Part shown: positions 35,422 through 37,332 of the stretch, piece after piece
Layout: each line of letters begins with the position of its first letter
How positions within the stretch are numbered: position 1 is the stretch's first letter
Source of the DNA: an uncultured Alphaproteobacteria bacterium
GTDB lineage: Bacteria > Pseudomonadota > Alphaproteobacteria > GCA-2731375
NCBI GenBank assembly: GCA_951812805.1
Contig: CATOSZ010000003.1
Location: 1 to 64,000, forward strand
Length of the DNA: 64,000 bases
Direction: 5' to 3'
Notes under the pieces: generated by a model
The model's database searches: none
Told to the model about the DNA's origin: nothing
Seen by the model: only the letters and a program-made list of their open reading frames with translations
Program-made: the position numbers and the translations under genes

Positions 35422-35943
35422 TCAGATCCTCTTCTCCCGTGGATTGAAGATCTGTGGCGGTGGCGGCGGTGTGCCTTTCAGGGGCGGTGTGGGCGGCGGG
35501 CGGATCTCGACGTTGAGGTCGCCGAGTTCCTCCAGGTTCTTCTTGAAGAACGGCTTGGTGATGACGATGCCGGCGCGGCGGCGGACCGCCTCGTCGACCG
35601 CGTCCTCCAGCTTCTCCGCCAGCTTCAGGTTCCAGGGCACGACATAGGCGCGCGGCTCGAGGGAGCCGTCGAGGCGCAGCCAGAGATAGATCGCCTTGCC
35701 CTCGTCCAGGCTGACGCCCAGCAGCGCCGCGCGTTCGACGCTATTCTCGTACCACTCGAAGCTGGCCGGCTTCGGCTTGCCCAGCATCTCGACGATCTGC
35801 ACGTAGACCAGCGGCAGGAACAGCGTGGTGATCGCGACGGCGCCGATCCGCACCCGGGCCCGGCGCGGCGCCCAGATGGCGATCGCCGCCAGGATCGCAG
35901 CCACCGCCGTTGTCCCGGCGAAGACGTAGAACAGGACGCTCAT
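35422..35943 (-). CDS. Two-TM protein of an ExbB/ExbD-like gene set, unknown function
   Basis: The 173-residue protein has two N-terminal membrane segments (residues about 3-24 and 31-52), then a soluble domain ending in a proline-rich tail (PPPTPPLKG, PPPPP). I do not recognise the domain, which includes LGKPKPASFEWYENSVE and ALLGVSLDEGKAIYLWLRLDG. It is the last gene of a three-gene minus-strand operon. Its start overlaps the ExbD-like stop as ATGA at 35940-35943, so it is translationally coupled and likely part of the same membrane complex. Confidence 0.65.
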   Translation of the reverse strand: MSVLFYVFAGTTAVAAILAAIAIWAPRRARVRIGAVAITTLFLPLVYVQIVEMLGKPKPASFEWYENSVERAALLGVSLDEGKAIYLWLRLDGSLEPRAYVVPWNLKLAEKLEDAVDEAVRRRAGIVITKPFFKKNLEELGDLNVEIRPPPTPPLKGTPPPPPQIFNPREKRI

Positions 35944-36542
35944 CGCGGTCCCCCCGTGATCAATGGCCGCCGGAGCGTGCTGACGCTGTCCTCGACCAGG
36001 TCGCCCTCACTGGTCAGGCGGAAGCGATAGGCCGTCTCCTCCTGGCCGTGGCGCTCCAGGTTCACCGTGGTGGCGAGCAGCTGGCGTGTGTCTTCCAGCG
36101 GCTTCTTGACGCTGACCACGATGCTGACCGGGACCTTCTCGCCGCGCGAAAGCGGGCCGTACATGTGCACGTTGACGACATATTCACCGGGCGGAATGCC
36201 CCGGCTGTAGCTCACTTCGTAATTCCGGTTGGTCGCGTCGCCCTCGATGCCGAGGTCGTCGCGCAGCAGGTTGAAGGTATTGCCGCCCTGGTTCCAATAG
36301 CCGACGGGCACTTCGCGCGGCGCCTTGACCCAGAGGTCGACGTCGACAGGCAGATCATTCGGCCATTGCATCTCGACGATGATGTTGCCGGGGGATCGAT
36401 GCTCGTCCGTCTCGGTTTTCACCGGGCGGACGTGCGGCAACAGCATGATCACCATGGCGACGAAGCCGATCAGAGCCAGCAGGATCACGTCGCGAAAGAC
36501 GGTGCCCCAGCTTTCCTCGTCGAGCGGATCAAGCCCCCGCAC
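35940..36542 (-). CDS. ExbD-like membrane subunit with a large periplasmic domain
   Basis: The 200-residue protein has one membrane segment (residues 17-36) preceded by D18 in the run FRDVILLALIGF. This resembles the IDVMLVLLIIF segment of ExbD and TolR, where the Asp carries protons. The periplasmic part is not the usual ExbD domain but an unrecognised beta-rich domain with DLPVDVDLWVKAP and GGNTFNLLRDDLG, then PGEYVVNVHMYGP. It overlaps the proton-channel gene by 14 bases. The proton-subunit role is inference. Confidence 0.65.
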   Translation of the reverse strand: MRGLDPLDEESWGTVFRDVILLALIGFVAMVIMLLPHVRPVKTETDEHRSPGNIIVEMQWPNDLPVDVDLWVKAPREVPVGYWNQGGNTFNLLRDDLGIEGDATNRNYEVSYSRGIPPGEYVVNVHMYGPLSRGEKVPVSIVVSVKKPLEDTRQLLATTVNLERHGQEETAYRFRLTSEGDLVEDSVSTLRRPLITGGPR

Positions 36543-37155
36543 GACGCTCCCCCAACTCGACGGTGGCGGCGATCAGGTCGACCGTACCGGATACCAGGAT
36601 CCGGTAGTTGAGTGTCAGCCAGACATAGAGGATGGCGCCGACCAGGGTGGTGTGCAGCGCGATCGACATGCCGCTGATCAAGGTCGCGACCATGGAGGAA
36701 ACCTTCTCCACCTCGCCGGCCTGCTCGGGGTCAACGCCCGAGAGGGCGACGATGAAACCGATCACCGTGCCGACCAGGCCAAGGAAGATGAGCGCATTGG
36801 CGATGTCGCGAATGCCGGCGATCCGGTCGGTCAGGCGCAGCCGCAGGGCGCCGGCCAGGTTGGCGCGCCCCTCGGAATCCGCCGCCGTCAGTTGCGCCAT
36901 GTAACGCCCCGCCCAGCTGTCCGCGCCGGGCGCGCTCGCCTTCACGGCGTCGAGGTCGGCACCGTGGCGCCAGATCCTGATGCCGCAAAGGCCGAGCCCA
37001 AAGAGGAACACCAGCACGATCAGGCCCGACAGCTCGCGCAGATGGCCATGGATCATGCCGTCGAGCCAGCCCTGGAGATAGGCAGCCCCGGCCAATGCGC
37101 CGAGCACGACATTGGTCAACAGAAACCGAGTGAACAATAGATGGCGATGCTGCAA
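36529..37155 (-). CDS. MotA/TolQ/ExbB-family proton channel protein
   Basis: The protein has four hydrophobic segments and the ExbB-type core IANALIFLGLVGTVIGFIVALSG followed by SMVATLISGMSIALHTTLVGAILYVWLTLNY. I start it at TTG 37155, 6 bases after GGAGGAGG, which gives 208 residues; a longer frame to 37278 starts in a poor context. It lacks the usual cytoplasmic MotA segments, so it is not a flagellar MotA. It is first in an operon with the ExbD-like subunit and a third membrane protein. The neighbours are not tonB or tolA, so the energised partner is unknown. Confidence 0.75.
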   Translation of the reverse strand: MQHRHLLFTRFLLTNVVLGALAGAAYLQGWLDGMIHGHLRELSGLIVLVFLFGLGLCGIRIWRHGADLDAVKASAPGADSWAGRYMAQLTAADSEGRANLAGALRLRLTDRIAGIRDIANALIFLGLVGTVIGFIVALSGVDPEQAGEVEKVSSMVATLISGMSIALHTTLVGAILYVWLTLNYRILVSGTVDLIAATVELGERRAGA

Positions 37156-37332
37156 CGCCGGCCTCCTCCGGGTGGGGAGCCTCGCTCCCGGTTCATTTGG
37201 CGGCGCGACTGTATCACTTCCCGCACCGCCCCGGCACACCGGACGCGCAGTCGTGATCATGGCGCATGACGTGGCCATCGCCGGTGAAGCCAGATAGAAG
37301 CAGGGGATCAGCCGCGCTGACGGAGAGCGAAG
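37156..37332. other. Divergent intergenic region between the proton-channel operon and a membrane protein
   Basis: This 177-base segment contains the GGAGGAGG ribosome binding site of the minus-strand TTG start, but no other supported gene. Promoters for both directions must lie here; none is clear enough to place. Confidence 0.4.

Follow-up and report, generated by a model that had tools for sequence, protein, structure and literature searches.

A three-gene locus of alphaproteobacteria and their phages with a MotA/ExbB-family channel subunit and a DUF2135-like periplasmic domain

Motors of the MotA/ExbB type drive flagella and gliding, energise uptake and envelope upkeep, and serve in Zorya defence; among their channel subunits, MotA has four transmembrane (TM) helices and ExbB has three. 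We compared these systems with three genes, called A, B and C, in an alphaproteobacterial contig of which a 64,000-nucleotide stretch (the window) was analysed. Like ExbB-ExbD-TonB and TolQ-TolR-TolA, the trio combines an ExbB/TolQ-family subunit, a single-TM partner with an Asp near the start of its helix and a third inner-membrane protein with a tail, but its A is four-TM, the domain of B is DUF2135-like, and C, which is two-TM, has no Pfam match to TonB or TolA. Genes for a receptor, Pal or TolB are not seen adjoining the trio. Like MotAB and PomAB, it pairs a four-TM channel subunit with a single-TM Asp partner, but B lacks an OmpA-like peptidoglycan domain, no flagellar genes are seen nearby, and MotA is longer than A (about 208 residues). 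Zorya ZorAB shares with the trio a channel region, as A scores well against ZorA models, and a presence on both chromosomes and mobile elements. It differs in the long ZorA tail (A falls far short of the 383 positions of the ZorA_2 profile) and in the OmpA domain of ZorB, while neither ZorC nor ZorD was found and the NCBIfam scores lie below their cut-offs.

Going by the open-licence literature, bioRxiv preprints excluded, the trio is an unreported variant of the MotA/ExbB motor: no description of it was found there, including the available parts of PMC12505986, PMC9389320, PMC12204202, PMC6163359 and PMC9127263. With slightly more than even confidence, we infer that the trio is a new, self-contained family of PMF-driven inner-membrane motors of the MotA/ExbB kind, whose motor action would be directed at a general target in the envelope.

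Architecture of the trio and its channel subunit

Gene A (36529..37155), gene B (35940..36542) and gene C (35422..35943) lie on the minus strand, where A and B overlap by 14 bases (36529..36542) and B and C by 4 bases, ATGA (35940..35943), so that the coordinates and overlaps given in an earlier note on this DNA are correct. Gene A starts with a TTG at 37155 after a GGAGGAGG run, with an alternative ATG at 37278 that begins the longest frame, and gene B starts with a GTG. On reading the list of open reading frames, the flanks of the trio in the window appear to be ordinary metabolic genes, and no TonB, TolA, MotB or OmpA-like partner is seen beside it, in agreement with the same note. The Tol-Pal operon partners TolA, TolB and Pal are likewise absent from the adjoining frames, by the same reading, and none recurs near the other loci. 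Scans for Rfam families, tRNAs and promoters gave nothing useful.

Protein A, described beforehand as an ExbB/TolQ-like channel, indeed scores 30.2 bits for PF01618, where the curated Pfam cut-off is 22.9 (E 4.2e-7), and contains four hydrophobic segments. Its GxxGT and TT motifs align with those of the window genome's own TolQ-like protein; such Thr/Gly motifs in the last two TM helices line the channel in this family. The T/T pair is present in 170 of 185 A proteins that are paired with a B, and 6 of the 185 are gapped there. Judged by its sequence, A is a channel subunit of the MotA/TolQ/ExbB family. Elsewhere, the window genome has a single ExbD-family gene, adjoining its strongest PF01618 match (contig C1). 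Because the genome thus keeps a separate ExbB/ExbD-type pair, the trio is an addition to it. Another ExbB-like protein of this genome (L253, contig C2:418439-418651) has a long C-terminal part, and it is nearer to A than the TolQ-like protein is (E 4.9e-13 compared to 7.3e-10).

Among the named relatives with the best scores against A are ZorA channel regions (NCBIfam ZorA_2, E 2.1e-5; PADLOC ZorA1, 2.3e-5), which would fit a Zorya-like device for phage exclusion or defence, in which the motor senses or answers an incoming phage and serves phages against their competitors and bacteria as a defence. The match is to the channel part alone, however, and the NCBIfam scores are far below their cut-offs (23.8 bits compared to 100 for ZorA_2). 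Protein B lacks an OmpA domain and, when examined for kinship to ZorB, had no match in Pfam or PADLOC; no neighbour that could serve as ZorC or ZorD recurs across lineages. We regard this main rival of the motor reading as unlikely, and the distribution of the trio, presented below, bears on it further.

The axle candidate and the third subunit

Protein B is the candidate for an ExbD-like axle. It has one hydrophobic segment (residues 20-38), and its AlphaFold2 model (mean pLDDT 89.8) places a helix at residues 9-37 and beta strands from residue 53 onwards. The Asp at residue 18 (codon 36489..36491, minus strand) is a candidate proton carrier. The claim that this single TM segment carries its Asp as in ExbD agrees with a profile alignment to the ExbD/TolR helix that puts Asp on Asp (hhalign probability 18%, E 0.0013), obtained with an ExbD set (20 of 25 loci) chosen by a motif requiring Asp, which favours that register. 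Window B had no match to the ExbD/TolR family (PF02472) in Pfam at E up to 10, and PF02472 is not among the 25 of 28 families listed for 55 B relatives at E up to 1. The missing profile match, the weakness of the TM match and the loss of Asp18 in some relatives all count against the motor reading.

Asp18 is kept in 157 of the 190 distinct B sequences with a letter at that position and is replaced by V or A in the other 33 (L094, L095, L097, L182-L188, L191, L192, L210-L229 and L237 carry such proteins). All 33 have a Lys within TM residues 19-36, compared to 1 of 159 others. The Lys lies four residues on in the large-genome genus g267 and its nearest kin and seven residues on in L097, and by ideal helix geometry both placements put it on about the same helix face as Asp18. 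On the best tree of 33 chosen rows the loss of the Asp requires two changes, only one of which is forced by well-supported branches. We considered position A156, in protein A, as a compensating acidic residue, but the D or E found there in 32 of the 33 Lys variants also occurs in 27 others and is not specific to them. The Asp-to-Lys branch is not explained by a simple proton-motor reading, and proton conduction may differ from the usual mode in some members of the family. The GldL/GldM motor, which has an essential Glu in a GldL TM helix (PMC9127263), offers a precedent for a different charge layout.

The periplasmic domain of B (residues 50-200; 35943..36395, minus strand) had been called unusual, and it proves to be DUF2135-like rather than ExbD-like. 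Profile-profile alignment with DUF2135 gave an hhalign probability of 98.1% (E 8.4e-14), while TerD, A and C as controls gave 0.3% or less; the DUF2135 and TerD sets held 3 and 4 proteins, respectively. In other genomes the B profile also matches four proteins of larger size (E 2e-8 to 8e-5), three of which are above the Pfam cut-off for DUF2135. The Pfam model itself (PF09906) had no match to window B and a weak match to 9 of 55 B relatives (best E 0.017). By these profile comparisons the domain is homologous to DUF2135, over about 124 columns that include the DxD, RD and E positions. The family includes E. coli YfaP; unlike B, two of the three DUF2135 proteins found are large TPR proteins.

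The folds closest to the B model are TerD structures (3ibz, 2qng and 2qz7; Z 9.2 to 10.0), the best of which superposes with Z 10.0 over 142 aligned residues at an rmsd of 5.2. The likeness is that of a shared beta-sandwich fold; TerD is soluble. A sequence kinship between B and TerD (PF02342) was dropped, as hhalign gave 0.3% despite the matching fold. The ExbD periplasmic fold is unlisted among the fold matches of B, which by itself proves no difference. Foldseek against the PDB found no match for B or C at E 0.001 or better, both are unnamed by Pfam, PHROGs and NCBIfam, and a PDB sequence search did not name B.

Ten residues of B (W60, D67, D69, L92, R94, D95, G98, E109, G119 and E168) are invariant among 192 distinct sequences, wherever these have a letter; a smaller B set comprised 69 non-redundant of 101 B proteins plus the window's own. 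Five acidic residues form a cluster in the domain. Of the distinct sequences that are ungapped at these positions, 191 of 191 have D67, D69, D95 and E109, and 190 of 191 have D96. Such an acidic cluster suggests a cation site, perhaps for Ca2+.

Protein C was correctly described as two-TM with a proline-rich tail: its hydrophobic segments are 3-21 and 33-51, its end is Pro-rich, and its model (pLDDT 87.7) has two helices, 2-24 and 29-55, followed by a small domain that spans about 71-148. The loop between the two TM helices is positive, and the tail would thus be periplasmic. The protein is poorly conserved, with a mean column identity of 21%; its family was gathered by iteration, growing from 26 to 59 frames, and aligned from 75 of 78 non-redundant C proteins plus the window's (L161, L102 and L103 were dropped). 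In the tail, P154 and K156 are found in 90% or more of these 76 rows and belong to P154-L155-K156 (35476..35484, minus strand), the core of a conserved motif. Among 192 distinct C frames, 122 have the P-x-K motif within their final 60 residues, compared to a mean of 8 for shuffled tails. A short, conserved tail motif of this kind suggests docking on a partner. A resemblance of C to the eIF5A C-terminal domain (VIA-align Z 6.7, 71 residues, rmsd 3.4) was below the noise guide and was set aside. Two tandem C genes follow B in L045, L046 and L257.

Since a small predicted domain follows its TM helices and its proline-rich tail is conserved, C could be a TonB-like transducer, and the trio would then energise uptake across the outer membrane in the manner of ExbB-ExbD-TonB. 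A gene after C adds to this case: in several lineages, that of the window's type excepted, a lipoprotein or secreted protein resembling DUF3108 is encoded there on the same strand (L240-L249, L047-L051, L081-L083, L087, L179, L181, L189 and L208), and it may be an outer partner of the trio in those lineages. Yet C is two-TM and has no Pfam family match at E up to 10, hence no TonB recognisable by Pfam, and no receptor gene recurs beside the trio. Beyond the trio, and save the lipoprotein in some lineages, no neighbour is conserved across lineages (sets of 40, 27, 80 and 20 loci). We therefore hold the uptake energiser to be a weaker rival of the envelope motor, and an improbable one.

Linkage in bacteria and carriage by phages

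A scan of genome contigs found 282 B relatives, of which the best 80 were retained. These best 80 of 282 come mostly from Rhodospirillales, Azospirillum, Hyphomicrobiales and other Alpha- or Proteobacteria, together with some metagenome-assembled genomes labelled Gamma- or Betaproteobacteria and one Nitrospira. In 78 of the 80, B is preceded by A and followed by C on one strand, and the other two are cut by contig ends; in L161, one of the 78, the nearest C is 4.3 kb off. We counted linkage at loci with about 700 bases before and 600 bases after B, in groups that share some genomes. The three genes stand together in 36 of 39 loci of the class and, for two other lineages, in 10 of 10 and 9 of 10. 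A sample of the phylum gave 15 of 16. Among viral loci, they are together in 17 of 19 from IMG/VR and in 6 of 6 from Rhizobium and Sinorhizobium phage records. Linkage in relatives had been named beforehand as a refutation test, and the genes proved to be tightly linked, at 73 of 74 untruncated chromosomal loci from GTDB. The distance matrices of A, B and C correlate with r of 0.83-0.88 over 70 loci, while the maximum of 1000 permutations was 0.105. The recurring gene order and this correlation show that the trio is not a chance arrangement. The three genes are inherited and transferred as one unit.

Some loci speak against our reading. Two (L093 and L194) have no recognisable C and one (L238) no recognised A, while in L003 and L004 the sole A-like gene is very divergent (E 0.0012 in L004). 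L064 fails the linkage count because its order is A, C, B. At L086:8355-9047 a B gene occurs without A or C, and its genome (G365) has four B matches, two of them adjoining.

Within the class, 59 of 385 genomes have gene B, which is a single copy in the window genome. It is near-core in a family with genomes of about 1.3 Mb (29 of 32, with fixed neighbours in 10 of 10 loci) and in the large-genome genus g267 (50 of 60), but the family of the window has it in only 3 of 15 genomes. The trio is present twice in each of seven Azospirillum plasmid records. The patchiness in the window's family, along with carriage by temperate and other phages, would suit a defence device. Near-core, syntenic presence is unusual for defence systems, and its occurrence in the small genomes counts against a defensive role in hosts, but not in phages.

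The phage copies are real. B was found in 21 IMG/VR contigs and in 27 of 50,697 phage records, all of Rhizobium or Sinorhizobium phages; two other phage queries found 21 and 27 records, from the same hosts only. Neighbouring genes on the viral contigs encode terminase, primase-helicase, head maturation protease and endolysin, and the isolated phages with the trio include the temperate 16-3 group, RHph_N3_19, RHph_I1_18 and Pootjesviridae. On a tree of 78 chosen B rows, phage and cell labels require at least six changes, three of them forced by well-supported branches, compared to a mean of 21.5 when labels are shuffled. Consequently, there was more than one transfer of the trio between phages and cells. 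In the family of genome G554, B occurs in only 2 of 121 genomes and is absent from 119, and by their neighbours both copies lie in 16-3-like prophages, so the trio seems to need no dedicated host gene. Being near-core in some lineages and phage-borne elsewhere, it would be a housekeeping machine in some bacteria that is also carried into hosts lacking a copy.

Several other genes lie near the trio in viral contexts. In the 16-3-like phages and prophages L052, L053, L054, L254 and L286, a trypsin-like protease (phrog_9683 in L052-L054) is encoded directly before A or one gene away. A viral contig encodes a SbmA/BacA-like peptide transporter after the trio (L013:6039-7001; PF05992, E 3e-124), and at L007:6172-8177 the trio is followed by genes for a phage nucleotide-sugar epimerase and an ornithine cyclodeaminase family protein.

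Phage A proteins are minimal, at 143-182 residues, as might be expected of a gated ion channel or lysis-timing device, with which phages would alter membrane energy and which hosts would use as a stress valve. An endolysin-type gene lies about 1.5 to 3.3 kb downstream of the trio in L003, L004 and L021, the one in L021 being the only one of the three that was scanned; in 16-3-like phages such a gene is about 4 to 5 kb upstream. The Asp-to-Lys change would alter conduction. In Pootjesviridae and RHph_N3_19, however, the trio stands among replication and sigma-factor genes, outside any lysis cassette, and the invariant periplasmic domain of B suggests a periplasmic task. We consider this weaker rival very improbable.

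A candidate envelope motor and its significance

In the envelope motor that we favour, A would form a channel ring whose axle would be the Asp18-bearing TM helix of B, in a 5:2 assembly. Proton flow would turn or shift B, and the beta-sandwich of B, perhaps in a Ca2+-dependent manner, would relay the motion outward together with C, whose tail would dock on a partner. The role in a host would be envelope upkeep, and the role in a phage would be to adjust the envelope of the infected cell. The trio persists in phages whose host family seems to lack it. By this argument from absence, it probably acts on something general in the envelope, such as peptidoglycan, LPS or a common outer-membrane protein, or on one of its own parts, rather than on the product of a dedicated receptor gene. 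The earlier suggestion of a proton-driven machine with a non-standard target is supported, fitting the family of A, the TM register and domain of B and the linkage. Some relatives have lost the Asp, so that "proton-driven" should not be assumed across the whole family; this loss and the carriage by phages had been overlooked in the earlier note.

A bolder reading, which we put forward tentatively and think rather doubtful, is that the trio represents a class of ion-driven envelope motors that has not been described before and that viruses encode in full. Alphaproteobacterial phages would bring it to hosts without a copy for mechanical work on the envelope, some bacteria would have fixed it as a core machine, and one branch would have exchanged Asp for Lys with a different, perhaps charge-inverted, coupling.

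A further MotA/ExbB member whose periplasmic domain is unfamiliar, which has a constant third subunit and is at home on chromosomes as well as in phages, would widen the known roles of these motors. The phage copies of the trio are small systems in which its motor role can be tested, and the naturally occurring exchange of Asp for Lys is of direct relevance to whether such a motor can do without the Asp.
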